From the IMG/VR virus record IMGVR_UViG_3300035698_005082, positions 1-64,000 of that record: DNA of 64,000 bases. The stretch is one strand, 5' to 3'. Positions 26,738-45,398 of this stretch are shown here, one piece after another (within the stretch, counting starts at the first letter, position 1; each line of letters starts with the position of its first letter). A program made the translations under genes and the position numbers. The DNA is from a virus. Below the pieces are notes generated by a model. It had not been told where the DNA came from. It did no database searches and saw nothing but the letters and a program-made list of their open reading frames with translations.

Positions 26738-27436
26738 ATGGCTGCTCTTACAGATAACGAAATATCACAGATAATAAGAAACTTAATAACTAGCTCTCAA
26801 CAACAATCTCGCAATGTTCGTAATATTGATGAAGAATTTATGTCAGATTATATTGACATTGACAAGTTTATTGAGGTATTATATTCACTGTTGGAATCTA
26901 ATGGATATTTAATTGAAGGAGACAAGCAAGAAGAGGAGAATAATACCTGTAGTAAGTTTACTTTTACTCAGGAGTTTCCGAACTTTCTTGTCAACTCTAA
27001 TACAGTCGTTTCTGTCGAGGTAGAAAAAAGAGTACCAGCGAGTCTATCTGCTAACTCTGAGCCATTTTCAGGAGTCAAAAGTTATAGACCAATGTATCTG
27101 GGACAGGAAAAAGACGAGGTAGATGGTGGGATAAACATAGACCTACAATCCATTTATGATAACGAAATAAAACTAGTCTGCTGGTCAGACAGTCTAATAA
27201 TGGCGAGGAATTTATCTTCATTATTCGAGTCTATTATGCAAAAGTATTACTGGGTTCTGCGGAAGTATGTACCGGTACTAGTTTACACAGGAAGACAAAA
27301 CACGATTGTTACTGACAAATACGGTGATTCGAGATACTTCGGTATACCTCTTCATTACTTTGTTAGGACAAACGAAAGATTCATTCTCAAAGAGAGTGAA
27401 CTTAAGAACATAAATATAAGCCACACTGTTGGCTAA
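26738..27436 (+). CDS. Tail terminator / tail completion candidate
   Basis: The 232-residue protein has an N-terminal helix pair and an alpha/beta body with DLQSIYDNEIKLVCWSDSLI and LSSLFESIMQKYYWVLRKY. A strand-to-helix order followed by YFGIPLHYFVRTNERFI resembles proteins that cap the tail tube, and the position immediately before the sheath is where terminator genes usually lie. No catalytic motif or membrane segment. Codons differ slightly from the AUA-rich average (more GTT/GTA). The role is inferred from order and size. Confidence 0.45.
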   Translation: MAALTDNEISQIIRNLITSSQQQSRNVRNIDEEFMSDYIDIDKFIEVLYSLLESNGYLIEGDKQEEENNTCSKFTFTQEFPNFLVNSNTVVSVEVEKRVPASLSANSEPFSGVKSYRPMYLGQEKDEVDGGINIDLQSIYDNEIKLVCWSDSLIMARNLSSLFESIMQKYYWVLRKYVPVLVYTGRQNTIVTDKYGDSRYFGIPLHYFVRTNERFILKESELKNINISHTVG

Positions 27437-27452
27437 GTATAGGGGCACAAAA

Positions 27453-29435
27453 ATGCGCAAATACCAAAATTTACCAAGCATTAACGTTGAGTTACTTGAT
27501 GGTAACCTGCAAATCGATCAGCCAATCTCAGGACCAGTGGTTCTGGTTGTTGGCACAGCTTTTTCTGGACCATCTAACACTCAATATCTAGTATCTGATA
27601 GTAATCTTGCATCTGCAATTTATGGATCTGAATCTCAGTTGATTCAAAAGATGTCAGAAGCTAAAATGGGCGGTGCAAAAAACATCCTTTTATATAGAGT
27701 CGGTGGCCTAGCTGCTGAGATCTCAGGACTGTTTGGCGACAACACTTTAATATCAACCAGAGAAGAGACTTCTTCTGCAGGCTCTAAGTATGGAATGTAT
27801 GTTGGTCCAAGACCAAATGATGCTGGAAATGCTGGAATGATCATATTCGAAGGAGACACTATTGTTTATTCAAATATGCCAGGCGCTGAAGTAGACCTAG
27901 GAAAATTCAACGTTGTTGGATTTGATACGGCTTTCCCTCATGTAATCGGAACTCCAACTGCTCCAGTCTTGATGAAAGACGTACTAGCAAGTGTTGTTGA
28001 TGAAGCAATACAAAACGAAACAGGCGATGGAATTCTTACAACTTTCGATCTTGCCACAGCCGGAATAACAGCAGTTACATCTGCCACAGAAGATGCGGTA
28101 CCAGTTGCATACACAGTAGTTGGAACAGACATCGTATTCGATGTTGCTCCCGCCAATCTATCTGCGATAATCATAAATGGTACAATACCTCTTGACGTAA
28201 ACACTTTAACGCCAGTTCCAGTATATGTTCCTGGAGAAGACAATGTTAATGCTTCACTACAGAAGTACTACGAACTTCTTGATGCTGCATATGAAGACCT
28301 TGAAACGACTATTGCCACACAAATTGTTACTGGTATTGCTTATCTTGATGCTCCTAACATAGCAGACGGAAGTGTAGCAGTAGACAGACTAGATTACTTT
28401 AGAAAAGAAGAAGTGTCTGGCGAGACTGTGTATACATGGAATACCAACAAGCTAGTATATGTACTTGGTGGATCTAATGAGACCAATGATATACTACTTG
28501 CTGATCTTGACGAGAATGGTCAGCCGATAGTTAAATATGTATATTCTGAAGTGAACTTTGCACATCAAATGGGGATGTGGTTACACGCCATAACCGAGAA
28601 TGATAGATTTGTTCTTGGTTCAATTGGCACAAGTAAGCCATTGTCTAGTACAACTTCTTCAGTATCTAATTGGGTTGGCTCTCTTCCACAGACCGATATT
28701 AATGGTGTAATAATTGCTAACGGTACCGGCTTGCTGGGTAATAGATACATGACAGGAGCAATTGGCCAATTAGCAGGTTTTTATGCAACAGACTCTGGAT
28801 TTCCAGATGGGAATGTTGAATCTGACACTAATGGAGCACCAATAGATTTAGGTAAATACTTGTCAGTGGCAATGGGTGTAGCGGTAACGCCTAATAACCC
28901 TACAATAGGCACTGTTCTAAATCAAACGAATATGGATGCTTTATATATCGGACTCTTATCCGGAATTGTTCCAGGCGATTCAACAACAAACGCGGTTATT
29001 CCATATGTAACATTACCTTTCACAATAAAGAAGACTAAGCTTGATGAACTAACATTTGCTGGTTACGTCTCTTTATCAGATAGAACTCGTGGAACAACTG
29101 TCGTATCTGGAGAGCTAGCTACCGCTGAAGGCTCTGATTATGATTATGTATCTACAGCAATTATAATTGCAAGCGTAGTTAAGAACATAAGAGAAAGATC
29201 GGAACCATTCCTAGGAAAGGGATTAAATCAAATAACCTTAGCAGCAGCAGATACTGCTGTTGAGTCTGTATTCAGAGAAGCAGTGGCTGATGGATCAATT
29301 GTAAAATATGGTTACCAAGTTATTTCAGATACAGCAGAAAGAGGTAGAGGTCAGTTAAGAGTTCCAATAACTATCGTACCAGCATTCGAACTTAGAGAAG
29401 TTTCTGTACCAATCAAGCTTGCTTACGATATCTAA
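27453..29435 (+). CDS. Tail sheath protein
   Basis: The 660-residue protein contains sheath signatures. These are a start SINVELLDGNLQIDQPISGP followed by VGTAFSGPSN, a long middle domain, and the conserved C-terminal part (YVSLSDRTRGTTVV, then VVKNIRERSEPFLGKGLNQI and GRGQLRVPITIVPAFELREV). It polymerises around the tube and contracts on infection. An in-frame TTG at 27429 would overlap the previous gene, but the ATG at 27453 has AGGGG (27441-27445) 7 bases upstream, so I chose the ATG. The next feature is a hairpin before the tube gene. Codon use is intermediate between the capsid gene and the rest. Confidence 0.92.
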   Translation: MRKYQNLPSINVELLDGNLQIDQPISGPVVLVVGTAFSGPSNTQYLVSDSNLASAIYGSESQLIQKMSEAKMGGAKNILLYRVGGLAAEISGLFGDNTLISTREETSSAGSKYGMYVGPRPNDAGNAGMIIFEGDTIVYSNMPGAEVDLGKFNVVGFDTAFPHVIGTPTAPVLMKDVLASVVDEAIQNETGDGILTTFDLATAGITAVTSATEDAVPVAYTVVGTDIVFDVAPANLSAIIINGTIPLDVNTLTPVPVYVPGEDNVNASLQKYYELLDAAYEDLETTIATQIVTGIAYLDAPNIADGSVAVDRLDYFRKEEVSGETVYTWNTNKLVYVLGGSNETNDILLADLDENGQPIVKYVYSEVNFAHQMGMWLHAITENDRFVLGSIGTSKPLSSTTSSVSNWVGSLPQTDINGVIIANGTGLLGNRYMTGAIGQLAGFYATDSGFPDGNVESDTNGAPIDLGKYLSVAMGVAVTPNNPTIGTVLNQTNMDALYIGLLSGIVPGDSTTNAVIPYVTLPFTIKKTKLDELTFAGYVSLSDRTRGTTVVSGELATAEGSDYDYVSTAIIIASVVKNIRERSEPFLGKGLNQITLAAADTAVESVFREAVADGSIVKYGYQVISDTAERGRGQLRVPITIVPAFELREVSVPIKLAYDI

Positions 29436-31258: not shown

Positions 31259-31741
31259 ATGTCTGAAAATGAAATCAATAGTGTACAAGGAATGCCTGTT
31301 AATAGTGGGGATGTAATCATGGATGATAATGATGAATTTCTGGAAGGTATTGAAGAAGAAGAAGTTGTAGCGCAGACTCCGCTAGAAGAACTAGAAGAAT
31401 TAGTATCAGGATTAGAAAATGCACCTAATAAACTTGACTTAGAACAGTGGAAAGATATACATGGACAGTTCTATGCATCTTCCGTAAACGGAGACGATGT
31501 ATTTATATGGAAAACATTAAGAAGGTTAGAATATCGTAGCATAGCAGCTAGTGGAGCATTAGAAAAGCAGGAGTCATTTGAAAATGCAGTTGCAAGAAAA
31601 TGTTTACTTTGGCCTAGTCCATCTCCACAATTTTTTGCTGGAGGAGATGCTGGAACTATACCAACATTATTTAAACAAGTAATGCATCAGTCTGGATTCA
31701 TATCAGATGAAGTAGCCATATCTATGATAAGAAGAGTTTAA
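31259..31741 (+). CDS. Tail assembly chaperone-like protein (first of a pair)
   Basis: The 160-residue protein has a long acidic N-terminus (about 10-60) and a helical core with QWKDIHGQFYASSVNGDDVFIWKTLRR. It ends in MIRRV. The position between the tube genes and the large internal proteins is where tail assembly chaperones lie. These coat the tape measure during tail assembly. Two in-frame stops, TAA TAG (31739-31744), separate it from the next gene, which is in the same frame. A frameshift product of the usual kind is therefore not expected. Role inferred from position and composition. Confidence 0.5.
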   Translation: MSENEINSVQGMPVNSGDVIMDDNDEFLEGIEEEEVVAQTPLEELEELVSGLENAPNKLDLEQWKDIHGQFYASSVNGDDVFIWKTLRRLEYRSIAASGALEKQESFENAVARKCLLWPSPSPQFFAGGDAGTIPTLFKQVMHQSGFISDEVAISMIRRV

Positions 31742-31744
31742 TAG

Positions 31745-32257
31745 ATGAACTTAGTCTCGTTAGGTAGCGAGAAGATGGCAATATCATTCAATGATCTAGA
31801 GATTACTATAAACGATATGTTATATCGTAATCTAACATTTATAGTAAGATTGCTTACCTATGATGAGTTATCTAGGGTTAATATGATTAACACAGATAAT
31901 AGTCTCATAAATATAGTTATAGAAGAAGATATTTACAATCTTGCTGTGGAGCAGGTTGTTGGCATAGACGAAGAGATAGATGTTGAGAGTATGGAGGCTG
32001 GTATAGTATCAACTATATCAGGCATAATACTTAATAGTAGCAACTTCTATTTCAATGACCCATTAGCATCAGTAGATAAAGAATCAACTGGTTCTACAAT
32101 ATTCAACCAGATGCAATTAGTAGTTGCAAAGAATTATAATATCCAGTTCAAAGACATATTATCTATGCCAATAGATGAGCTTGTCCGCAAGTTTTCTTTA
32201 TATCAGACAACATATCCCAATGAAGCGTTGAGCTTCAGCAATAATCAAGATGCATGA
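31745..32257 (+). CDS. Tail assembly chaperone-like protein (second of a pair)
   Basis: The 170-residue, mostly helical protein contains FNDLEITINDMLYRNLTFIV and a final KDILSMPIDELVRKFSLYQ helix, which resembles the helical ends of T4 gp26/gp51-type chaperones and of Mu-like tail chaperones. It starts immediately after the double stop of the previous gene and overlaps the next by 8 bases. No catalytic residues. Assignment is by context. Confidence 0.45.
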   Translation: MNLVSLGSEKMAISFNDLEITINDMLYRNLTFIVRLLTYDELSRVNMINTDNSLINIVIEEDIYNLAVEQVVGIDEEIDVESMEAGIVSTISGIILNSSNFYFNDPLASVDKESTGSTIFNQMQLVVAKNYNIQFKDILSMPIDELVRKFSLYQTTYPNEALSFSNNQDA

Positions 32258-34226
32258 TACAGAATATTCCACACCTATCATACAAATCGCCTCAGCCAGT
32301 ACAATCTCTAAGCAAAGAGAGGAAGAAAGGCGTAAGGACGCTTTAGACAAGTTTCTTATTACGGGTGGCACAGTAATGGGTGCTGCATATGCATCTAAAA
32401 AACTACTTAATAATCCAACAATTAGTAAGTTCTTCAAGCTATCAGTTCTTGAAGCTTCACTAAATGAGACAGCCCAGGGAACATCCTGGAATGACTTATT
32501 TTCAGATAAATCAAATACAAGAAAGCCATCACATTTAATACTGGAAGCAGTAAGAAAAGTTGAGGAGCTTTCTCCTTTCAGAATCTTTAGAACTCTACAG
32601 CTATCCCATGTCATGACCCCATTTGTAACGGGCAAAGATGTAGCAGTAGACATAACTGGAGACATGATAGTATCACAAGAAAAATACTTTAAAAGCCTAC
32701 TGTCTTCAAGAGGGGAAGTAGAGCTGTCTGATAAACACAAGGTTTATGGCCTAAGATTAGAAAATGGTAAACTGTATGAGAAAACAGCAGATGGAAAAAC
32801 TGGAAGCCTAGTAGCAAAAGAAGCTAGATTAATACTACCTCACTTTGCATTACCAAAAGATGATAATTCTAAAGAGCTAGTCTATGCAAATAAAGTGCTT
32901 AGACATTATCAAGAGATAGTGGGTGGAGGAGTAAAGGATCAATTTCATAATCTGGTTGGATCAGACATATCTCCTTTTACAGTCATTGCAGGCAAGTCTC
33001 AATCTCAAATATCATATGATATGTTCAGATCATATTCAAGAGTAGTGATGGAGCGTGGAGCCAAGGTGTGGGATAACCCACTAGAATCTATAGTAGACTT
33101 CCTACCACATGCTGAAAATGCCAAGTGGCATAAAAACTTAAAGAAATTTTCTCAGATAAATATAGGAACTGGTGGTCAATATAGGCAATCAGTTCCCAAG
33201 TCATTACTAATGATGGCGAAAAATCAGAAGAAGGTTCTTGCAGCAGTGGCTGGATACAATATCTTAGATGCAGTAGTTTCTTCATCTGCTACGGAAGATG
33301 GTTCATTTAGTGGTGGCCTATTAGAAGGTACTGCTACGGCTGCAGTAAATACACAAATAGCGTTTGCAGAAGTGTGGTCTGATAAGTTTCAAGATTATAG
33401 GGATGCGCAAGAATATTTAGCACCCGGATCTACATCTTTAATGACGATGGCAGGACTACCATTAGCATTAGGCACAGCAGCAGGTACAGCTTCTTATGCG
33501 ACAAGGCTGTACCAAAGTGCAAAGAGTGGAATAGATGCATCGGAAGTATCAGCAGAAAAGCTAATAAAAGTATTCCCAGAGAAGATGGATAAATATCTTC
33601 CAAAAGTCATATCATCTCTTAAAGCATCAAGATCAAAGAGATGGGGAATAAGAGCTGGCCTGATTGGCCTAGCTCTTGAGGCACCGTTCATACCAGGAGC
33701 ACTAATAGGTGAGGGTTCAGAAAGCTTAAAGGATAAGTATTCTGGAAAAGAAGATGTTGCAGTAAGAGCAAATAGATGGTGGTTTACAGGTTCTGGAGAT
33801 TATGGTGGAGATCATATAAAGTACTTTGATAAACATTGGTATGCAAAACTGATGGCCAAAACAAAGACGAAATCCCTATATGGAGATGACGAAACAAAGG
33901 CTGGTCTTAATCCAATACTACACCCATTAGACTTTTTAAAAGATCCATACAAATTTGAGAAGATGCATTCAGAAGATAGACCATACCCAGTTTGGGGAAT
34001 GGACATATCTACTGGATCATTTCTAGGAAAGGCATTTGAAAAAACAGTTGGTGCATTGTTAAAGCCAGATGTAATAAATCCTAGATTAGCAGAAGAACTT
34101 AGAGATGTAGAACCAGGAACCGTAGTCCGTAATGATCACACAATAACTAATAAAGGTATTAGTAGAGCATTGGCAACAGATACATTCTCTGTTGCTTACC
34201 AATATCGGAAGGTGATGTTTCATTAA
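32250..34226 (+). CDS. N-terminal part of a large internal virion protein (tape-measure region), interrupted
   Basis: The 658-residue reading frame starts with an ATG that overlaps the chaperone gene. It is helical and charged, with several short hydrophobic glycine/alanine segments: about 327-343 (VLAAVAGYNILDAVV, followed by an acidic run), 397-417 (LMTMAGLPLALGTAAGTAS) and 466-487 (GLIGLALEAPFIPGALIG). Later parts are aromatic (VRANRWWFTGSGDYGGD). No enzyme motif is seen. The order after tube and chaperones is that of a tape measure or other tail-lumen protein. The frame ends at 34226 after AYQYRKVMFH, yet coding continues at once in the -1 frame (next feature). The product is probably one protein broken by a frame change. 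Confidence 0.6.
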   Translation: MHDTEYSTPIIQIASASTISKQREEERRKDALDKFLITGGTVMGAAYASKKLLNNPTISKFFKLSVLEASLNETAQGTSWNDLFSDKSNTRKPSHLILEAVRKVEELSPFRIFRTLQLSHVMTPFVTGKDVAVDITGDMIVSQEKYFKSLLSSRGEVELSDKHKVYGLRLENGKLYEKTADGKTGSLVAKEARLILPHFALPKDDNSKELVYANKVLRHYQEIVGGGVKDQFHNLVGSDISPFTVIAGKSQSQISYDMFRSYSRVVMERGAKVWDNPLESIVDFLPHAENAKWHKNLKKFSQINIGTGGQYRQSVPKSLLMMAKNQKKVLAAVAGYNILDAVVSSSATEDGSFSGGLLEGTATAAVNTQIAFAEVWSDKFQDYRDAQEYLAPGSTSLMTMAGLPLALGTAAGTASYATRLYQSAKSGIDASEVSAEKLIKVFPEKMDKYLPKVISSLKASRSKRWGIRAGLIGLALEAPFIPGALIGEGSESLKDKYSGKEDVAVRANRWWFTGSGDYGGDHIKYFDKHWYAKLMAKTKTKSLYGDDETKAGLNPILHPLDFLKDPYKFEKMHSEDRPYPVWGMDISTGSFLGKAFEKTVGALLKPDVINPRLAEELRDVEPGTVVRNDHTITNKGISRALATDTFSVAYQYRKVMFH

Positions 34227-36028
34227 TAGAAGAAGGAAAGCTCATAGCCCCAGCAGCAGCTACATATGATCCAGCAAGTGAAGCATTATCATGGTCGTGG
34301 GAAGCTTTTAAAGACTTCATAGGTATAAAGGGTTGGTTGTTAGGTGTAAGTGAAGAAGCGTTAAGTGTACCATCCTCTCAGGTGCCACCACAGCTAGCTA
34401 GGTCGGGCGAAATGACCAACATTGGTAGACGCATTAAGGATTCTAATGTAGGCGGCTTATTTGGCCTTACAGAGCCTCAGAGAAGATTCATACCAACATC
34501 AGCAGATGTAACAAGAGATAGGATAAATCCATTAAGAAATGATATGCCATCATGGCTTCCTGGCGATGATGATAACTTCTGGCTAAATTTGCAGAAAGGA
34601 GATCCTTTCACTAAAATAGAGCATTCAGAATCTAGGCTACCAGGTGCTGGATATGAATCATTACATAAAGAGATTACAGGTATTAATCCAGAAGACTATC
34701 CAGATATATTTAAACTAAAAATATTATCTGACGTAGCAATGGGTTCTGATGCATATTATGATGTTAGGAATAGAGTAGAAAAAAGAGAATCAGAAAATGG
34801 ATTAACTAAATACGAGTCAGGTATGCTGTCTACTATAAGAGAGCAGGAATCCAAAAGGTCTGTAAAAAGACAATTCTCTGAATATAAAACAGACAGAGAA
34901 CTTACTGGAACTAGTTTTGTACAAAAAGTTGCTAACTCTTATTGGGAATCAGTATCACATGGCGCAGAAAGAGTTTTGCCATCAGAATTCCTAACATTCT
35001 TTAGACCCGCAGGCAAGCTAATTCATCAAAGAACCGCAATAGAAGACTATGAAAGAACCCAGCTGGAAGGATCAGACATGGCTATTTGGACAAAGCCATT
35101 CGATCACTTTATTAAACCGGCAGCAGTATCCGCAAGAAGAATGGTTGACGGAGACTTTATATCAGAAGAGGTAGACAACAGAAGAGATATAGATAGATAC
35201 TTCGATACTCTTGAATATGTTAAGCAAAGAAGATTGTATAAAGAAGCTGTAAGGTCAGGCAGTTCTGGAGATGCCAGAACAGCTCAGGCAGCATATCAGA
35301 AAACTGTAGAAGGCGCATTAACTTCTAGTATAGACACTGATACTGAAATCCTAAGATCATATATATCTCTACCAGATCAAGAGAAGCCATATTTCTCATC
35401 ATTTGTAAATGCCAAGTCCGGAGATAGACAAAAGATATTAGACATATCTCCAGACAGAATCTCTGATCTATACAAAGTCATATGGTCAAGAAAAGATATT
35501 CTAGATAAAGCAATAGAGTCTGGAGCAACTGCTGAGAATGCAAATTATGAAGTTAAAAAAAGGGTGGCTGAAGAAGAGTCATTATTACAATCTGAATATA
35601 GTGACGAATATAAAGCTTGGCTAGATATGAAAGACAAAAGAGCTAGTACGTTTAGAGAACATTTGGCTGATACAAATGCTGAAGCATATTTAACTAATAC
35701 TGCTGGCATACCTGGGAAAGATTTTTCTGGATGGGATCCAAGAATAGATATGGACAGGATAAAGCTGCGAGCATTAACAATAGGGAATGAAGATTTCTTT
35801 AAGTTTGGGTTTTGGAAAAGTGATATAAGCGAACTAGAAAGATATACTTCTGTAAATAGCGACAAGGAAGTAGAGGACATAGCAGAAAGAATAAGGGATG
35901 AGCAAAGAGCGAAAATACATATACAATCCCAGATGGAAGACGCACTATTTAGCGAAGGCTATGAAATTAAAAGAATCTCTATAGAAGAAGGACGTGGAGA
36001 TATTGACATGAGTATAGAGAGAACGTGA
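34205..36028 (+). CDS. C-terminal part of the same large internal virion protein (no proper start codon)
   Basis: This frame is open from 34166 to 36028. Its upstream portion (SEGDVSLIEEGKLIAPAA, then ALSWSWEAFKDFIGIKG) looks fully coding, but contains no ATG, GTG or TTG before a TTG at 34337. That TTG sits in the middle of the coding-like stretch and has no good ribosome site. Joining the upstream protein at ...FSVAYQY to SEGDVSLIEE... by a -1 step gives a smooth sequence of about 1,265 residues. The rest is helical and charged (RRDIDRYFDTLEYVKQRR; FREHLADTNAEAY) without enzyme motifs. It may arise from an indel, a sequencing error or recoding. Its end overlaps the next ATG (TGATG). Confidence 0.55.
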   Translation, partial: SEGDVSLIEEGKLIAPAAATYDPASEALSWSWEAFKDFIGIKGWLLGVSEEALSVPSSQVPPQLARSGEMTNIGRRIKDSNVGGLFGLTEPQRRFIPTSADVTRDRINPLRNDMPSWLPGDDDNFWLNLQKGDPFTKIEHSESRLPGAGYESLHKEITGINPEDYPDIFKLKILSDVAMGSDAYYDVRNRVEKRESENGLTKYESGMLSTIREQESKRSVKRQFSEYKTDRELTGTSFVQKVANSYWESVSHGAERVLPSEFLTFFRPAGKLIHQRTAIEDYERTQLEGSDMAIWTKPFDHFIKPAAVSARRMVDGDFISEEVDNRRDIDRYFDTLEYVKQRRLYKEAVRSGSSGDARTAQAAYQKTVEGALTSSIDTDTEILRSYISLPDQEKPYFSSFVNAKSGDRQKILDISPDRISDLYKVIWSRKDILDKAIESGATAENANYEVKKRVAEEESLLQSEYSDEYKAWLDMKDKRASTFREHLADTNAEAYLTNTAGIPGKDFSGWDPRIDMDRIKLRALTIGNEDFFKFGFWKSDISELERYTSVNSDKEVEDIAERIRDEQRAKIHIQSQMEDALFSEGYEIKRISIEEGRGDIDMSIERT

Positions 36029-39000
36029 TGGCATATGACCCATATAAAGAACTTAATAAAATAAATAAATTCTTGGGACCAAAAGCTCCGATATTGGCCG
36101 GTGTTGCTTTTGGTGCTTGGTCGCAAGATGGACAAGATAATCCGTATGCTTCCGTAGCAGCGGCAGCGATAGGTGCATATACTGCACATGCAATAGCTCC
36201 AGATATTCAGAATCTATACAAGGCACTAACTCCAGAAAGGGTAAGTCTTGATGCCTTGAGGTCTAGAGAAATAGATATGAGTAATGCTCGTAGTACAGCA
36301 TTGGGAAATGCTTTAGACTCTATGAATAGGGCATTTGAAACTAATATAGTTAACGAGCCAATGCCATTAGATATATTAAGACACAATATGTCTGTAATGT
36401 TTAATGCTGCATTCTCGTCTATGACTGACGATGAATTAATACCTGGAGTACAGGCATTAATGTCTTCTGTATCTACAGATAGAAAGAAGGCTCTAGAGAT
36501 AAGGGATGTTCTCATTAATAGATCCAAAATAAATTCTATTAGTGGTGCAACGATACCCGATACGGAAAGAAAGACAATACCAATAAAGCCTAGTGATAGC
36601 ATCGAGAATATAAACGAAAAGCTATTTAAGCACTTTAGCCAAGAATTAAACAATCCAGAATCTATTGCTAAATCAAAAGCAGACAGTATGTCTAAGGCAC
36701 TACTAGGTAAGAATGCAAAAATAGAAGGGCACTCTCTGACTATAAAGACACCAGATGGTGCAAGGTCTAGCGAGAGGATATCATTGACTGGCTATAAAGC
36801 AGATGGTACCAAGTTCAGTAGAAGAAACGGAGTAGATTTCATATCGAGATCATTTAATCCACTAGGGGAAATGTTCGCAGATGGTAAACAAATAACAGAC
36901 TACGAGACAGGATCATCTAATAATACTAGAATAAGTGTTGGGATGGCAACAGCCAAACATGACCCAGAAGAGTTAATAGGCCTTTTCCATAAATATAATA
37001 ATGGAATATCTGATGCCGAGTGGGCAAAGATATCTAATAAGACAGATTCATTAAATATATATTCAGCAACAGACTCAAGAGTTCCAGAAGGAATGTCATT
37101 TTATGAAATGGATAGTTCTGGATATGGCAGACGCATATCTGGAACAATAGACATGAATGTAACATTTTCTCAATCAGAAGATACTGGCAAGGTGACTATT
37201 GGTTCAATGGATACCTCAATAGAGATAGGCGAAGAGAGTTCTAAATACAGTAAGTTTCTGGATAGGGTATCTAAGCAACTAGGCTATGACCCGCAAGTTG
37301 GGCAGAGCCCCAACTCTTTAGGCTTAATAACAGCATATTCAGATAAGGATAATCTATATAATCCTGGTCTGTATCACGCAGAAGCACGAGGAGCAACATC
37401 TGTGAGCTATAGAGACCATTTACCGTTTTCAGTATCATCTTCTGAATACCTTAAGCAAATAGCCGGAAAAGATTCAAGAGTAAATGCATTGAGAACATCG
37501 GCATCACATGGATACAGAATACATATGTCTGAAACTATGGGAGAAGCTGTGTCACAATTATTTGGCAATAAGCTAACAATAGCTGATGGGCATGGTATAG
37601 CGAACCCAGGAGAAAGAAAAAGCTTTAGTGGTAGACAGCTAACATCGGTAAGTATTGGTAACACTGGCGATTCAATAAATCCAAAATATCTCTTATCTAT
37701 GGGCCTACCAGAAGAAGTTCTAAATATGACACCAGTACAGCTAAAGACTTATTTGCAAAATAATTCAATAACTGTACAAGCAGGACAGGTGCTAGGATAT
37801 GACGAAAGCAGAAGAGCTTCTAGATTGAAATCCCATTTTACTTCCGGTAGATTAATAAACATAGTAAAAAATGATAAAGGAATAAAACTTGTTTTTTCTG
37901 GTAAATATAGACCAGAAGATTGGATCAAGATATTTGGAGCATCGTCTAAGTCTGGTTTGACTTTTGCTGACACTCGTATGCAGTTTCAGGAAATGGGAGC
38001 ACTAGCCCTAGCAGAATCAAGGGGAGATATAACTATAAGAAAAGATGGACCAGGGAATATCAGAGTTCTTGCCTCAACAAGAGTATTGGGTGTTAAATCT
38101 AAAAAAGATAAGGTAGAGAATTTGGATCTAAACACATTCATGCAGCGATGGAAGAATAGTCCAACACGTAATAGATATATCAAGGAAGCAGCCGGGGCAC
38201 ATATGATACAAGGCTGGGATGAGGTTGGACAAAAGAATATATCTACATTATTAAACGGAAGTGCTGAAGAAGGGCTAGAAATAGTAAGAGGATTAGGACA
38301 ATCACTTAAGGGAAAAGGTCTAGATGATGAGATCCTAGAGATGGCATTGCTGGGGGATTCTAGAGGAGACAGAATAGAAAAAGCTAATATAATGAGAACC
38401 ATACTTATGACATCTAGTGAGAAGTCTTCTCAAGATATGTTTCTGACTGCAGCAGAGTACTCTGCAAGATCTGGTAATACAGAAGATGTAAACTTCTTAA
38501 GCGGTCTAGAGAATAGAAATGGACTAGTGTCAACAGATGAAAGGGATAGACTGAGGGGGATAATAACTCAGGCGTATAAGGGGACAGAGGGTAAATCATA
38601 TACACAGTTTACACCGGATATGGGAGAAGCCATACATGGTGCTGGAAAGTCTGGATCTATGTCTAGACTTGAGTATTCAATGCTTAAAGCAATAGGTCAT
38701 AATATGAGTATCTTTGATGCTGTCACACAGCAGAATTCAGAAGCATTATATGAGTTGTCGATGATACACAAGTCCGATAGAAGCGGAAACTTCTCTGCTA
38801 AATCATTTTCTGAAGGCACCGATATATCAGAGGTAATGAGACAGGCATTTAGAACTAAAGCAGAAGATAGGCTTGGGTATCTATCTAGGGCAGGCATGAG
38901 TGAAAACATAGCTGATGAAGCCGCTAGGTACACACTGGCTAATCCCATAAAAGGGATAGCATCTATACCACTGGCCCTAGTAGAAACTGGGCATAGTGGG

Positions 39001-40671
39001 CTTAAGGAGTACGGTGGAAAAGAAATACTAATGAGCATAGAGAAGGCAAGAGAAGCAGTGATTAATGCAGACATTGACGTATCAAATGCTAGAAGTAGTA
39101 AGTATAAAGATGGAGCAATGGTTAGACTATCAGCAGCAGCTGATGAGTTAATAGGATACCAGAAACAAGCCATGTCTGGAGATAACAATATAAAGAAGAC
39201 TGCAGCAAAAAGAGCTGCCGATGGTTCTTTACTATTAACAGCACGCCCAGTAGGTGGTAGTGCCGACGCGGCAGTTGGTAGTGTAAAGAATATAGCTTAT
39301 ATATCAGAAGGAATGGCTAAGAGATTATATTCAAATCATGGTTTTAAATATGAAAATCTATCTGAAGATATGGGTAATGGCATTAGTAGACTAAGGACTG
39401 AGAATGGCAATAACTTCATGGCACAGATATCAAGAGAGCCTGTACAGGGCCCATACTCTTCGATGGGATATGAGATCAGAGTAGACAGTAGTCTTAGAGA
39501 TAATAGTCAACACATATATATACCGCAAAGCGGAAAGCTAATAAATGCCTTTACATTTTTAGACTATGACGCTGACCATCTTAGAATGTTACCACTATTA
39601 GGCCTATCTGCTGCTGAAGAAAAAGCTTATATTAGCACCAATGAAGCGCTAGTAGGACACGCTCAAGATGCTATAGAAATACAGAAGAGCCTTGGTATAA
39701 AAGGTGTATCTAAGCATATCGATGTATTATCTCAGTTCGGATCAGTAGGAGAGAAGATTAGGCAAATGATGAAAGCTGGAGAGACGGCTAGGATTAGAAA
39801 GATAGATTCTCCAGAGGTAACAAGGATAGTTGAAGAGTTTGGGGCCGCATTAGACATGAAAGATATTGAAGGAGCAAGAGGACTTATGCCAAGAGTCCTT
39901 GCTCACAATCTTACAGAAAATCTTATAAAATCTTCCCATAAAGAGGTTGGTGGAAATATGTCTGGAGCAGTGCAGGCGATAGAAGCGGCACAATCCAGGT
40001 TCGCTTCAGATAAGAATAAAGATATATATAGAGCATCCATGATAAGGATAGTAGACGACACCATTGGCGGAGAAGTTGAGAACCTATCTCCAGAACTACA
40101 GGCTAGATATACACAGGGATTGGATGATTTAATTGATGCACACATACAGCATGGTCCAGATGTTAAAACATTTATGGGTGATAAGAATTCTAAGAGAATA
40201 GTGGATCAAATTGGAATATCGGAAATGATAGAAGACACAGTATTGCAAGATGGCAATGGTCCAGTACCAAGTTCAAGAGGTGAAATAACACCGAGAAGCG
40301 CAGGTACGGCATCAAAAAAGATGCTAAATGATTCTATTCGGGATACAATGGGGATGCTATCCAAGAACAAAAGATTGCTTACAGCATCAGCAGTCGGACT
40401 TGGCGCTCTAAGTATACTGACCAGGGATACGCCAGATCAACTAGCATCAAGCTCTCCAGGATCTTCAAATGGGGCACAGCCACTACAGCCACTTTCTAAC
40501 GAAACAGCTTATACTAGAAAGTATAATCCAAAAAAACAATACTCAGCATCAGCAGATGTAAGATCTCCAAGTTCAAATATAAATACAGCCTCTATAGATA
40601 GAGCATTATTTGGTGACAGGATAGGACAAGTATCTGTGAATATAAACGATAAGAATAGAGACTATTTATGA
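36028..40671 (+). CDS. Candidate single-chain double-psi beta-barrel RNA polymerase, possibly virion-packaged
   Basis: The protein has 1547 residues counted from the ATG at 36028, which overlaps the previous stop; a GTG one codon earlier is less likely. Motifs in order are: KLTIADGHGIA (D520, DGxG as in YonO/RDR-type polymerases); WIKIFGASSKSG (K634 and K641, like the paired Lys of the beta-subunit barrel); ISREPVQGPYSS (R1136-x-P1138, like NRAPTLHR of beta'); FLDYDADHLRM (D1179, D1181, D1183, like DFDGD); and PLLGLSAAEEKAYISTN, like the beta' helix ending in STNN. The R-to-Asp spacing is 43 (35 in E. coli beta'), and the Asp-to-STN spacing nearly equals that of beta'. Short hydrophobic segments lie near 21-55 and 1450-1466. 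It would transcribe phage genes, possibly after ejection. Motif reading only; Gly of DxDGD is Ala here. Confidence 0.6.
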   Translation: MAYDPYKELNKINKFLGPKAPILAGVAFGAWSQDGQDNPYASVAAAAIGAYTAHAIAPDIQNLYKALTPERVSLDALRSREIDMSNARSTALGNALDSMNRAFETNIVNEPMPLDILRHNMSVMFNAAFSSMTDDELIPGVQALMSSVSTDRKKALEIRDVLINRSKINSISGATIPDTERKTIPIKPSDSIENINEKLFKHFSQELNNPESIAKSKADSMSKALLGKNAKIEGHSLTIKTPDGARSSERISLTGYKADGTKFSRRNGVDFISRSFNPLGEMFADGKQITDYETGSSNNTRISVGMATAKHDPEELIGLFHKYNNGISDAEWAKISNKTDSLNIYSATDSRVPEGMSFYEMDSSGYGRRISGTIDMNVTFSQSEDTGKVTIGSMDTSIEIGEESSKYSKFLDRVSKQLGYDPQVGQSPNSLGLITAYSDKDNLYNPGLYHAEARGATSVSYRDHLPFSVSSSEYLKQIAGKDSRVNALRTSASHGYRIHMSETMGEAVSQLFGNKLTIADGHGIANPGERKSFSGRQLTSVSIGNTGDSINPKYLLSMGLPEEVLNMTPVQLKTYLQNNSITVQAGQVLGYDESRRASRLKSHFTSGRLINIVKNDKGIKLVFSGKYRPEDWIKIFGASSKSGLTFADTRMQFQEMGALALAESRGDITIRKDGPGNIRVLASTRVLGVKSKKDKVENLDLNTFMQRWKNSPTRNRYIKEAAGAHMIQGWDEVGQKNISTLLNGSAEEGLEIVRGLGQSLKGKGLDDEILEMALLGDSRGDRIEKANIMRTILMTSSEKSSQDMFLTAAEYSARSGNTEDVNFLSGLENRNGLVSTDERDRLRGIITQAYKGTEGKSYTQFTPDMGEAIHGAGKSGSMSRLEYSMLKAIGHNMSIFDAVTQQNSEALYELSMIHKSDRSGNFSAKSFSEGTDISEVMRQAFRTKAEDRLGYLSRAGMSENIADEAARYTLANPIKGIASIPLALVETGHSGLKEYGGKEILMSIEKAREAVINADIDVSNARSSKYKDGAMVRLSAAADELIGYQKQAMSGDNNIKKTAAKRAADGSLLLTARPVGGSADAAVGSVKNIAYISEGMAKRLYSNHGFKYENLSEDMGNGISRLRTENGNNFMAQISREPVQGPYSSMGYEIRVDSSLRDNSQHIYIPQSGKLINAFTFLDYDADHLRMLPLLGLSAAEEKAYISTNEALVGHAQDAIEIQKSLGIKGVSKHIDVLSQFGSVGEKIRQMMKAGETARIRKIDSPEVTRIVEEFGAALDMKDIEGARGLMPRVLAHNLTENLIKSSHKEVGGNMSGAVQAIEAAQSRFASDKNKDIYRASMIRIVDDTIGGEVENLSPELQARYTQGLDDLIDAHIQHGPDVKTFMGDKNSKRIVDQIGISEMIEDTVLQDGNGPVPSSRGEITPRSAGTASKKMLNDSIRDTMGMLSKNKRLLTASAVGLGALSILTRDTPDQLASSSPGSSNGAQPLQPLSNETAYTRKYNPKKQYSASADVRSPSSNINTASIDRALFGDRIGQVSVNINDKNRDYL

Positions 40672-43600
40672 TACTAAAGAATAACGGATCAGAAAAAATA
40701 AGAATAAACAATGTCAATCTGGAAATCAATCCAGTTGACATACTTTCTATACAGAAAAGAAGACTGATCTCAGAAGAATTCATAAGAGAAAACTCTAACT
40801 ATACATACATGGGTAATTATGGAGAGGCAAACTTTAAGATAATATTGCAATTTGATATAAACGAAGTATTATCTGAGCCAAGCTCAGCAGAGAGTCCATC
40901 TGACTTCATCCAGCTACTTGCACAGATTAATAACTATCCATTCTTATTTATAACCTCTAATAGAATAGAATCTTATTTAACGACACACGTAAAGACTGGT
41001 ACTAGTGGGGAGATAATGTTTGGCATAATGTCATTCGAGCTAAGAACAGATTCTTCTGCACAAAACATAGTTACGTTAACATTGCACCTTTCATACTTTA
41101 ACCATGCACCATATGCAAAAGAGATATCGTTCTATGATGCTATAGAGGACAAGTCTCAGCCAGAAAGAACAAAAGTATTAAAAGGGAAAAAGAATATAGA
41201 GTATATAGCAGAAGATACGTCTAGCCTTGTTGGCAATCAGCTGTTTAATAGATATTTCACTTCAGACTATTCCGCAATAATGGGTAGGCTAGATAAGTAT
41301 ATTAGTGGCGCATCGTCAATAGCAGATGTAAAGTTGAGATATCCAGTATTCTTAAACGACGAACCTGAGTCTGGCGACTATGAAGAGATGGTATATTCTG
41401 AGATAACTGCAGAAAAACTCATTGTAAAAGCCAAGGCGTATACATTATGGCCAGACCTTGGTATTGCTAATAACATTAACACCAATGAATCCCCAGTTAC
41501 CTCAATAGCCCTAGTGAGAAGAAATAATTTTGCATCACACAGCATGACAGCATGGTCATATCCAACTTTGCAATACATGGGTAGAGGAGGAACGACAGTC
41601 GTAACAACAATATCTCAAGAATCTAATACTGGAACAAGTATAGATTATGTAAAGCTGTGCTTAGGAAAGCTTGATTCAAATCATAGAAAGTTTGCAAAAT
41701 ATTCTCAATATAATGTATTAAAGCTTGATCATATAATCTTTGATTTAGTACCGGTTTTCGGGATTGTATTAGATAGAGAAGAGATAGGTACAAGTTCTAG
41801 TTTTCAGGATGTAGACAATGGTGTATTTATATTTTCAGAAAAAAATCTTAAGGAATTAATACAAAGGAAAAAACCTAGGGCATCTGGATTCAGGGCGGAT
41901 AATCATGATATAGATAGAGTAATTGATATACTAACAAATCTTAGTAATGGAATACCAAAGACTAAAGAATTCGATTGTAGTTATAGTTACAGCAAAGAGG
42001 ATGAAACTACCAGGTATAGACAGATGCAAATACCTAGCCCTTTAACATCTGCACTGCTAAAGGAGCTAGAAAGACAGTATGATCTACCTGCACACACTTT
42101 ATATAATGTAATGTGGCAAGAGAGTAGAGGTGATCCTAATGCGGTATCTCCATCTGGGGCTGAGGGTGCATTCCAATTTATACCAAGCACAGCTTCAAGA
42201 TTTAACCTAGAAGACAGAACAGATCCTGTAGCATCAGCAGCAGCAGCGGCTGAGTATTTATCTTGGCTAAAGAATAAGTTTAACGGCAATATGAACCTAG
42301 CACTTGCTGGATACAACTGTGGTGAAGGATGTGTAGGGAAAGCTATAACAGAATCTATAAATAGTGGTGGGTCTGGCAGCTGGGAAGACATAATACGCTT
42401 AGTACCTAATGAAACGCAAAACTATGTTGAGCCAATAATGAATGGGATAGTAGCAGATGGTGCTAACCCTTCTCTGTCTAGACAAAATTGCCATTCCCTA
42501 TTGCATATAGATAAAGCAGAAGTAATCTTGGAAAAACTATCAGATGATCTTAATGGAACAGAATCTATACTGAGATTTTTCCCTGGAGGTTTAAATTCTT
42601 ATAATTATGGATCTTTAGGCAAAAGAACTTCTGGTGCAGTAACCGATGAAATGAGAACGATATCTAGCTCTTTAGAATTTTATAAAACACTCAGAGACAA
42701 TCAAGAGGGCAACGAAGTAAAGCTTGCTAAGGCTACAAGAGATATACAAGATGCATTCATAGACATTCTCTCCGAAGGCACTAGATCAAATAGGCTTGTT
42801 AAAGCATACATAACAGACTACCTAAGCTTTCTTGATGAAAATTATGATCAGATAATAAACTCATTCGATGATGAGGCATATTCTGACCTATCGCTTGGTT
42901 CTAGGATATTTAATTCTGGCCCAGCGATAGGTGAAGATGGTAAAGGTGCTAGGGATGCTAGAGATATAAATCCGTTCTTCTTCATGAAGGCAGGTGCATA
43001 TTATACTCCAGGAATACTAGAAAGATCTTATAGGTTGTCAGCTAAGAATTTAAGAAAGAACGCTCATGATATATCAGATGAGATAAATAGAGTAATAGAG
43101 CTTGATACTAAAATAGGAACAATTGGTAAAGCGAAAGGTGAGTTTAGCAATGATGATTCACAGCCTGAAAGATTAATTAACACAAAAATAAGTAAAGCAA
43201 TAAATGACTTAGCTGATCAGATAGATAAAAAGACTTTGTCTAGCGCAAGGGGAGACTTCCCATTAGACATGGCTACACAAGGACCCGAAGCTGAAGAATT
43301 GCAGGCATCAATACATTTTGAAAGATCAGCAGAAAGCCTTAAACGTGGCATTAATCAAGCATTCCCAGTATTAAAAGTCTATTTAGTAGAGGGGGATGAA
43401 GACTCAATTACATCAAATCTTAGAAATCTAAAGCATGAATATTATGAGCTTCCAGGTGTGATATCATCAAGGATAGTTCATCAAGATGATGATTCACCAG
43501 TTGATCTAATGTATCTAAAGATAGCTAACCCAGGATCAATGTACAGCGATAGTACAGTTACTATGGATCAGTTTTATCCAAAGAAAGACTGGAAAGCAAT

Positions 43601-45398
43601 AAATACAAATCATGAAAATTCTATACCGCTAGATAAGGTCTTCTTAAGACCTGGTAATAGACTACATGTTAAAGCAGGATATTCTAATGATATCAATAAC
43701 TTAGAAACAGTATTTAATGGGATTGTTACAGATGTTTCTGGCGAAATGACACTTGAAGTAATATCAGAAAGTTTTGGCAGAGAGCTTATAGCAGTAGAGC
43801 ATGGAGACGATCCAGAAGTTAGCAACTTTACATTTGGTGCTGATACATTCGAAGTTGTAGCCAACTTTGTATACTCTGGAGAATTGGAGCATTTCGGTAA
43901 TATAAAATTCTTTAGCAATCTAACAGACATAGAAGGTAGAGATAGGCAGCAGCTTACAGTAAATGATATACTTAAATACCATGGTTCTGCAGAATTATTT
44001 GTCAACATATATACTGATAGCATAATACAGGAAGGATTCGAATATGGATTCAATGTAAATCTAAATAGCTTATTTGGAAGTAGCCAAATAATGCCACACT
44101 TTCCGATATACAAGACGACACCATGGGCTGCTCTAAAAGAAATGGAGTTTAGACATCCAGGATCATTAGTAAGATCTCATAACTATGGAGATAGGCAGAC
44201 TGTATTCTACGGAATAAAAGAACAATTATATGTATACAGGAATACACATTATGCCATACAGTCTAGAGCTAGTAAGAATCTATACAATAGGTTTAGAAAG
44301 AACAGACTGAAACCAGCATCTGATTTCCATATATTAACATCTGATAATAACATTATTTCCAATGGTCTTAGGGTTACTAGTGATTTCAAAACTGCAGTAA
44401 GTGTAAGATATTATAACGATGTCGATGATATAAAAAGTCAGGATTTTGAATGGTTTGATGTTAAAATAGATGATAACTTAAAACCGATGTCCCATAGATT
44501 GGGAAGGTGTGAGATGTCTGGAACACATGGTAGATACTCGGCATTATCATATGCATCTACATATCTAAAGAAGGAAGTAGAGAAAATGTATGATGGCACA
44601 ATATTAGTTATTGGAAATCCATCTATAAAGTCTGGTGACTATGCATTAATAGATGACTCCGTAAGAGGCATGAACGGAATAGTGAAGATAAGGGGATGTA
44701 TACAACATTTCGATGTACATAATGGATTTGTTACTGAGATAATACCTGGCCTATATGCAGAATCCTCTCACATAGATTATTCGATGTTATTTACAAAATT
44801 ATATCTTGGGTATATGCCAGCCATAACAATTGCAAGATCAATAGCATCAGAAGATAATAACTCTGTTATAAATAGAGATATCACACTAGACATTCTTGGA
44901 CTATCAAATGATCCATTGGGATCTGTATTTGGGTCAGGAGATTTTAGTGGAGGATTAGCTTCTGTATCATCCCTACTAGCCGGTACTGGTTATGCTGGAA
45001 CTAAGGCCATAAGTGGCCTGCGTTCTTCTAAAACCATTGCAGATAGTAAAGTCTTTAATTCAGCCAAGTCTACATATGATGCACTAATAGCAAGAGGTAG
45101 ATTAGCAACATCATCCATATCTCCTGAAGTTTTTGCATCTATAAGAGTCGCGAGATGGGCAGTGGGTGGAAGCATAGTAGGGGTTTTACTATATGCATTC
45201 GTGTCTGAATACATAGATGAAATAAAGAAGACAAGGCAACCCATAAGAATGTTCCCGGTTTCACTTAATAGTAAACAATATATAGGTGGGATATGGGGAT
45301 ATAATGAGGGATCATACTGGGATGACTTTGGCAGTAATATATCTGAGAGCTTTAATAATGCAGGCATATTATTTAATCACATTTGGGATTCATTCTGA
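40668..45398 (+). CDS. Multidomain baseplate hub with lytic transglycosylase domain
   Basis: The protein has 1576 residues. The N-terminal 440 are beta-rich and include a baseplate-type LQYMGRGGTTVVTTI segment. Residues about 463-600 form an SLT lytic transglycosylase: LPAHTLYNVMWQESRGDPNA (catalytic Glu E485), SGAEGAFQFIPSTA and LALAGYNCGEG. A helical linker follows. Residues about 900-1370 resemble the gp27/gpD-type hub: LRPGNRLHVKAGYSN, FNGIVTDVSG and LEVISESFGREL. A membrane helix lies near 1499-1515 (VGGSIVGVLLYAFVSEY). It would form the central baseplate and cut peptidoglycan during penetration. ATGA overlap with both neighbours. Confidence 0.82.
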   Translation: MILKNNGSEKIRINNVNLEINPVDILSIQKRRLISEEFIRENSNYTYMGNYGEANFKIILQFDINEVLSEPSSAESPSDFIQLLAQINNYPFLFITSNRIESYLTTHVKTGTSGEIMFGIMSFELRTDSSAQNIVTLTLHLSYFNHAPYAKEISFYDAIEDKSQPERTKVLKGKKNIEYIAEDTSSLVGNQLFNRYFTSDYSAIMGRLDKYISGASSIADVKLRYPVFLNDEPESGDYEEMVYSEITAEKLIVKAKAYTLWPDLGIANNINTNESPVTSIALVRRNNFASHSMTAWSYPTLQYMGRGGTTVVTTISQESNTGTSIDYVKLCLGKLDSNHRKFAKYSQYNVLKLDHIIFDLVPVFGIVLDREEIGTSSSFQDVDNGVFIFSEKNLKELIQRKKPRASGFRADNHDIDRVIDILTNLSNGIPKTKEFDCSYSYSKEDETTRYRQMQIPSPLTSALLKELERQYDLPAHTLYNVMWQESRGDPNAVSPSGAEGAFQFIPSTASRFNLEDRTDPVASAAAAAEYLSWLKNKFNGNMNLALAGYNCGEGCVGKAITESINSGGSGSWEDIIRLVPNETQNYVEPIMNGIVADGANPSLSRQNCHSLLHIDKAEVILEKLSDDLNGTESILRFFPGGLNSYNYGSLGKRTSGAVTDEMRTISSSLEFYKTLRDNQEGNEVKLAKATRDIQDAFIDILSEGTRSNRLVKAYITDYLSFLDENYDQIINSFDDEAYSDLSLGSRIFNSGPAIGEDGKGARDARDINPFFFMKAGAYYTPGILERSYRLSAKNLRKNAHDISDEINRVIELDTKIGTIGKAKGEFSNDDSQPERLINTKISKAINDLADQIDKKTLSSARGDFPLDMATQGPEAEELQASIHFERSAESLKRGINQAFPVLKVYLVEGDEDSITSNLRNLKHEYYELPGVISSRIVHQDDDSPVDLMYLKIANPGSMYSDSTVTMDQFYPKKDWKAINTNHENSIPLDKVFLRPGNRLHVKAGYSNDINNLETVFNGIVTDVSGEMTLEVISESFGRELIAVEHGDDPEVSNFTFGADTFEVVANFVYSGELEHFGNIKFFSNLTDIEGRDRQQLTVNDILKYHGSAELFVNIYTDSIIQEGFEYGFNVNLNSLFGSSQIMPHFPIYKTTPWAALKEMEFRHPGSLVRSHNYGDRQTVFYGIKEQLYVYRNTHYAIQSRASKNLYNRFRKNRLKPASDFHILTSDNNIISNGLRVTSDFKTAVSVRYYNDVDDIKSQDFEWFDVKIDDNLKPMSHRLGRCEMSGTHGRYSALSYASTYLKKEVEKMYDGTILVIGNPSIKSGDYALIDDSVRGMNGIVKIRGCIQHFDVHNGFVTEIIPGLYAESSHIDYSMLFTKLYLGYMPAITIARSIASEDNNSVINRDITLDILGLSNDPLGSVFGSGDFSGGLASVSSLLAGTGYAGTKAISGLRSSKTIADSKVFNSAKSTYDALIARGRLATSSISPEVFASIRVARWAVGGSIVGVLLYAFVSEYIDEIKKTRQPIRMFPVSLNSKQYIGGIWGYNEGSYWDDFGSNISESFNNAGILFNHIWDSF

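Follow-up and report, generated by a model that had tools for sequence, protein, structure and literature searches.

RNA polymerases (RNAPs) of the two-barrel type are defined by an Asp triad on one barrel and two basic residues contributed by the other (PMC7824862). In the Thermus phage P23-45, the RNAP gp96 is fused to the tape measure, is present in virions and transcribes the pre-early genes (PMC10770324). In the Bacillus phage 0305phi8-36, orf146 was assigned as the tape measure from tail length, and only the last 60 residues of its product can be aligned between relatives (PMC2147016). Here we describe the gene occupying the slot of orf146 in a 64,000-nucleotide stretch of viral DNA (positions 1 to 64,000 of the 73,366-base IMG/VR record IMGVR_UViG_3300035698_005082; hereafter the window), which very probably encodes a two-barrel RNAP homologue carried in the tail module. 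The same gene order (chaperones, gp035/orf145, polymerase gene, hub) is found around 0305phi8-36 orf146 and around gp036 of Acinetobacter phage ME3, whose annotation puts gp036 between the homologues of orf145 and the hub. These two genes are annotated as tape measure or hypothetical protein, and no polymerase function has been proposed for them, or described for the gene family, in the literature searched, which did not cover the supplementary survey of PMC10770324.

The window gene is a large, previously uncharacterised open reading frame (ORF) on the + strand that ends at 40671 and starts at either a GTG (36025) or an ATG (36028), with a product of 1548 residues. The ATG is a plausible start, because it overlaps the stop codon of the upstream ORF (TGATG). 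A first-pass annotation made from the letters had located the gene in a tail module, between chaperone/tube genes and the hub, and had read it as an RNAP from a series of short strings. Both the ORF and its neighbours were confirmed, and every quoted string is present in the protein; in addition to the lysine motif (Table 1), these are DGHG (residues 521-524), SREPVQGPYSS (1136-1146), DYDADHLRM (1180-1188) and STN (1204-1206). The triad lies about 370 residues before the C-terminus. Like P23-45 gp96, the gene would encode a two-barrel, single-chain polymerase from a tail gene at the tape-measure position, with delivery alongside tail protein proposed. The respective segments (FRNPVMG...DFDGDTLVVLP in gp96 and SREPVQG...DYDADHLRMLP in the window protein) both show R-x-P followed about 40 residues later by D-x-D-x-D. 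The two systems differ in tail type and protein size: the tail of P23-45 is long and non-contractile, and its protein has 5,002 residues with the polymerase at the N-terminus, whereas the tail of the window phage is contractile and its protein has 1548 residues.

Among 50,697 phage records, ME3 gp036 is the only match to the window protein (24% identical, E = 4e-20). It is a homologue that keeps all the catalytic motifs, the pairwise alignment retaining SREPxQGxxSS, D-x-D-x-D, the two lysines and DGxG. Patterns drawn from the polymerase gene itself found no relatives among viral contigs at first, and later only ME3 and one other; scans of genome contigs gave no match and no prophage of this type. 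Since the polymerase gene diverges fast, the loci of relatives were fetched through the neighbouring hub and through gp035, without the use of any polymerase motif. In all, 63 distinct genes immediately precede a related hub. D-x-D-x-D is present in 61 of them, and in 46 it is preceded by R-x-P at a distance of 30-62 residues. Of 338 other ORFs from the same loci (at least 300 residues long), 4 have this pair, and 0.94 of 63 would be expected after shuffling. The spacing rule for R-x-P was fixed after the first loci had been inspected; in the 35 loci fetched later, after the motif had been defined, D-x-D-x-D is present in 33 and the pair in 25. Several genes scored as lacking the pair do have R-H-P, at a longer spacing, and the two genes without D-x-D-x-D (L082, 749 residues, and L099, 439 residues) are short and look interrupted. 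The closest relative, L025, is 27% identical to the window protein over 1429 residues.

It is also evident that the conserved columns of the family coincide with these motifs. In an alignment of 13 proteins (1121 window residues), the invariant positions are one Gly, R1137, D1180, D1182 and D1184, and K635, K642 and P1139 are among the nearly invariant ones. Among 42 proteins, the Asp triad is conserved in 100%, P1139 in 98%, R1137 in 93%, K635 in 88%, and K642 and F637 in 79% each, the value for the triad being biased because the presence of D-x-D-x-D at its expected position was one criterion for choosing rows. This bias does not extend to the Lys, Arg and Pro columns. The triad is invariant in alignments A8 and A11, the two-lysine motif lined up without supervision, and several Gly are also among the most conserved columns in the alignments of 40 to 42 proteins. 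To judge from these alignments, the most conserved residues of the family are the active-site signature of two-barrel RNAPs, and the Arg-x-Pro, triad and lysines named in the first-pass annotation form the conserved core. Its distance of 43 residues between Arg and triad holds for the window protein (R1137 to D1180) and for ME3 gp036 but not for the family, in which it ranges from about 36 to more than 62. DGxG and STN, taken there as diagnostic, are not conserved columns of the family; L025 reads DGYS and ANN at these places.

We then compared the family, as a profile, with proteins of known structure. Profile A11 (40 sequences, with the window protein first) was searched against 177,635 distinct PDB sequences, and the top 11 are all RNAP beta′ or gamma subunits (best E = 1.1e-5), in agreement with the polymerase call made from the motifs. 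The alignment is in register with NRAPTLHR and DFDGD of beta′. RNAP subunits of the phages phiKZ and AR9 rank lower in this search, and a control profile of the hub matches nothing in PDB. When ten whole records were searched with PF00623, this gene was the only one matched. At the level of sequence, no relatives closer than cellular beta′ subunits were detected. No significant sequence match was found between the A11 family and crAss gp66 or P23-45 gp64/gp96.

The predicted fold points to the same enzymes. An AlphaFold2 model of residues 486-1345 built from 40 sequences has a predicted local distance difference test (pLDDT) score of 70.3 and a predicted template-modelling (pTM) score of 0.67, with values mostly above 80 pLDDT between approximately residue 870 and the triad. 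When this model was compared by Foldseek with 350,542 PDB chains, 50 of the 50 matches listed were RNAP largest subunits (E from 1e-5, probability 0.96-1.00), and the structural comparison proposed in the first-pass annotation thus favors an RNAP, as far as a predicted model can. An earlier, poor model from 13 sequences (pLDDT 47) already had the AR9 polymerase as its best PDB match. The best matches among the predicted viral structures in BFVD include numerous viral RNAP subunits in addition to ME3 gp036 (5.5e-25) and a phage "minor tail protein". The minor tail protein (A0A8S5SD80, Siphoviridae sp. ctnpt50) aligns with the model of the window polymerase over 629 columns (Foldseek E = 4.7e-8) and might be a tail-carried polymerase as well, from a siphophage that is unrelated.

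A second branch of the family, the Bacillus-type branch (L010, L017-L022 and gp034 of KLEB27-3), carries NRYPT...ADxDGD. Its members match phrog_2987, "RNA polymerase beta subunit" (1.1e-6), and PF00623 (7.6e-4 to 0.015) at the DxDGD site. The window branch and the Bacillus branch are homologous (hhalign probability 98, E = 1.5e-13), and the hidden Markov model of A11 matches only the syntenic genes of the Bacillus branch (E = 1e-12 to 4e-6). KLEB27-3 gp034 (L004:3764-11065) sits in the same slot, reads KADYDGDFL and was deposited as "structural protein". The polymerase content of 0305phi8-36 orf146 would follow from L017-L021 and KLEB27-3.

In L017, L018, L019 and L020, the N-terminus of the polymerase (about residues 100-400) has a DnaQ/RNase_T-like 3′-5′ exonuclease domain, with the motifs FDIETLGD, YNGxxFDLP and HSAxHD and with profile matches to phrog_192 (8e-6, L017) and PF13482 (2.5e-5, L019); by eye, KLEB27-3 gp034 is alike. 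An exonuclease fused to a virion RNAP would be unusual. No exonuclease domain was found in the window branch by Pfam and PHROG searches. Furthermore, the phages of L017, L018 and L021 carry two different two-barrel polymerases, because their records also hold a separate PF05183-type gene (L116, L117 and L118; 1134-1179 residues, D[NVC]DGD) whose product resembles 0305phi8-36 orf99. PF05183 scores 5e-14 to 2e-10 for this RDR/YonO-type polymerase elsewhere in some Bacillus-branch phages and matches nothing in the ME3-type records. By analogy with P23-45, some Bacillus-branch phages may possess a pair of virion and non-virion polymerases.

The comparison with other two-barrel enzymes narrows the placement of the family. 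Cellular beta′ and the beta′ of the non-virion RNAP (nvRNAP) of the jumbo phages AR9 and phiKZ, which give the best profile and fold matches, have the NRxP...DxDGD core in common with the window protein. They differ from it in that the cellular enzymes are multisubunit, whereas the window protein is a single chain that also holds the lysine motif and in which the Gly of DxDGD is dispensable. YonO and the eukaryotic RDR-type RNAPs (PF05183), including 0305phi8-36 orf99, share the single-chain two-barrel layout. The crAss-like phage phi14:2 gp66 is likewise a giant single-chain virion RNAP whose fourth Asp-motif position is not Gly (DFDID), but its gene lies among other virion genes rather than between tail chaperones and hub, and it has no sequence match to the window family. 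PF05183 does not match the tail gene in related records, and the tail-gene profile against the orf99-type enzymes of the same phages is not significant (probability 2.5, E = 0.019), with the register correct. The YonO/RDR/crAss placement of the first-pass annotation is therefore not borne out.

Taken together, we regard a single-chain RNAP of the two-barrel (double-psi beta-barrel) type as the highly probable product of the gene, one that belongs to the tail module and would be delivered to the host and transcribe the genes that enter first. The active site would be formed by D1180, D1182, D1184 and R1137-x-P1139 on the beta′-like barrel and by K635 and K642 on the second barrel. Most likely, the protein becomes part of the tail or its lumen during assembly, because its gene lies in the tail module at the tape-measure slot of 0305phi8-36. 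Upon infection, the sheath would contract, the transglycosylase of the hub would open the cell wall, and the polymerase would be delivered ahead of or together with the DNA and would transcribe the first phage genes to enter. That the enzyme is packaged in the virion and acts on entry is probable, on the strength of the gene position and the P23-45 precedent; catalysis itself, like transcription of early genes, is here put forward as what the gene may do. The polymerase may be the tape measure itself or a separate lumen protein alongside gp035.

Several observations weigh against this interpretation. Taken alone, the window protein gives nothing meaningful in single-sequence searches of Pfam, PHROGs and PDB. 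Two weak matches, to a glucosyltransferase (phrog_2888, E = 0.15) and, on the neighbouring ORF, to PF21655, were set aside. The lysine-barrel profile alone has no match in PDB, so the case for the second barrel is made by residue conservation and the model. Across the whole model, TM-scores to PDB do not exceed 0.19, because only parts superpose, and the fold match consequently rests on Foldseek probability over those parts. There is no significant sequence similarity to P23-45 gp96, the functional precedent, and the likeness to it is used as a working analogy without a claim of membership. Finally, the canonical Gly of DxDGD is replaced by Ala in the window (DYDAD). The first-pass annotation had pointed to this replacement, and it lies within the normal range of the family, in which the fourth position is G, A, K, R, Q, D, E, N or F. 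The Gly is not a strict requirement, because crAss gp66, a recognised RNAP, reads DFDID.

Alternatively, the polymerase might be produced in the infected cell without entering the virion, and its gene might lie in the tail operon only because it is expressed late. Two-barrel RNAPs that are not part of the virion are known, and one is encoded at another genomic site in some Bacillus-branch phages (PF05183). We consider this unlikely in view of the strict, lineage-wide placement of the gene after the gp035 structural gene and before the hub, the deposition of the KLEB27-3 counterpart as "structural protein" and the treatment of 0305phi8-36 orf146 as tape measure (PMC2147016); in the Bacillus branch, a late-expressed polymerase would also be redundant with the second one.

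It is quite unlikely that the two-barrel fold persists without catalysis as a purely structural tail part, such as a tape measure or tail-lumen protein. This would suit the position at the tape-measure site of the tail module (PMC2147016), the loss and variability of the DxDGD Gly and the very high sequence divergence. Set against it are the three Asp in 61 of the 63 hub-adjacent genes and the rank of R-x-P and K635 among the most conserved positions in proteins only 12-28% identical to the window protein, a conservation of the active site that is the opposite of decay; the DFDID of a recognised RNAP, crAss gp66, also stands against it.

Some other two-barrel nucleotidyl transferase, such as an RNA-templated enzyme or a DNA polymerase resembling PolD, is very unlikely: the superfamily also includes PolD and RNA-dependent enzymes, and the N-terminal DnaQ-like exonuclease of the Bacillus branch would suit a DNA polymerase, but sequence and fold searches return the largest subunits of DNA-dependent RNAPs and not PolD, and no exonuclease domain is seen in the window branch. 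There is next to no chance that the motifs are accidental matches in a long structural protein, a reading that fits their shortness and the empty single-sequence searches but that the PDB search with A11 refutes to a high degree, together with the conservation in hub-selected relatives and the fold matches.

The RNAP of the tail module thus stands as the best explanation, and its setting is summarized in Table 1. The homologues of sheath, gp035 and hub lie in the same order as in the 0305phi8-36/ME3 lineage of contractile phages, with small tail ORFs and chaperone-position ORFs between the sheath and the gp035-like gene. The sheath gene indicates a contractile tail. From the likeness of sheath, gp035 and hub, the window phage is a distant relative of ME3, and kinship to ME3 implies kinship to 0305phi8-36 (PMC5000817).

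Table 1. Features of the tail module and of the polymerase gene in the window
Feature	Coordinates	Strand	Basis
Tail sheath	27429..29435	+	phrog_16991, E = 9e-70; 39% to ME3 sheath
Two small ORFs at the two-gene tail chaperone slot (0305phi8-36 orf143/144 type)	31259..32257	+	Position relative to ME3 gp033/gp034
Homologue of ME3 gp035 / 0305phi8-36 orf145 (virion structural protein), adjoining the polymerase gene 5′	32250..36028	+	Both halves 33-34% to ME3 gp035
Probable two-barrel RNAP gene of the tail module	36025..40671	+	ORF; family profile to RNAP beta′; AlphaFold2 and Foldseek; synteny
Predicted lysine-bearing barrel, beta-type equivalent (residues ~523-672)	37591..38040	+	AlphaFold2 strands; conserved G591, K635, K642, G667
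Two-lysine motif I-K635-I-F-G-A-S-S-K642-S-G (residues 634-644); K-x-F-[GS]-x(n)-K in relatives	37924..37956	+	Column conservation
Predicted Asp-bearing barrel, beta′-type equivalent (residues ~1120-1190)	39382..39594	+	Profile alignment to beta′ NRAPTLHR...NADFDGD; AlphaFold2 strands
Arg-x-Pro motif S-R1137-E-P1139-V-Q-G; counterparts NRxPT (Bacillus branch) and NRAPT (beta′)	39430..39450	+	Column conservation
Predicted catalytic Asp triad D1180-Y-D1182-A-D1184; DFDGD in the closest relative, L025	39562..39576	+	Hub-adjacent genes; alignments A8 and A11
Conserved motif LIKSSH (1300-1305), of E-x-x-I-K-x-K-H type, 3′ of the Asp barrel; also found in the Bacillus branch	39922..39939	+	hhalign of A11 against A5
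Baseplate hub, adjoining the polymerase gene 3′; anchor for relatives	40668..45398	+	PHROG matches; tblastn, 34.5% to ME3 hub

Some further features of the window were noticed. The gp035-like gene is split by a frameshift near 34.2 kb (34190-34340) into ORFs 32250-34226 and 34337-36028, and it is a single ORF in ME3, L025 and L023; the split may be an assembly error, a genuine break or recoding. In the hub, a lytic-transglycosylase domain (residues ~464-592) is inserted upstream of the conserved hub region. An ORF at 7530-9323, in the head region between terminase and portal, has weak "tape measure" PHROG matches (E = 4e-6) that are out of place, and an ORF of 1736 residues (19930-25140) sits between the head and tail genes. 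The sheath is shared by Moorella phage MTATph1, in which neither motif nor profile shows a polymerase gene of this kind.

A bolder version of the same interpretation is that one chain would be both tape measure and RNAP throughout this ancient lineage of jumbo phages with contractile tails: it would set tail length, thread into the cell on contraction and start transcription of the incoming genome. In the Bacillus branch, that chain would also carry a DnaQ-like exonuclease and be paired with a second, RDR/YonO-type non-virion polymerase. We offer this tentatively, as possible rather than probable.

In the literature searched, Thermus phage P23-45 and phages closely related to it are the only ones known to have virion RNAPs fused to a tail protein. 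According to the present results, a large lineage of contractile-tailed phages with deep divergence carries a two-barrel polymerase in its tail module, in more than 60 distinct genes so far annotated as tape measure, structural or hypothetical protein. The results also widen the sequence range of the active site, as DxDGD can occur without its Gly. The coupling of genome entry to transcription through the tail would then have originated or been retained in very different tail types. This offers a possible answer to how these phages start transcription, one that is testable in the isolates ME3, KLEB27-3 and 0305phi8-36.

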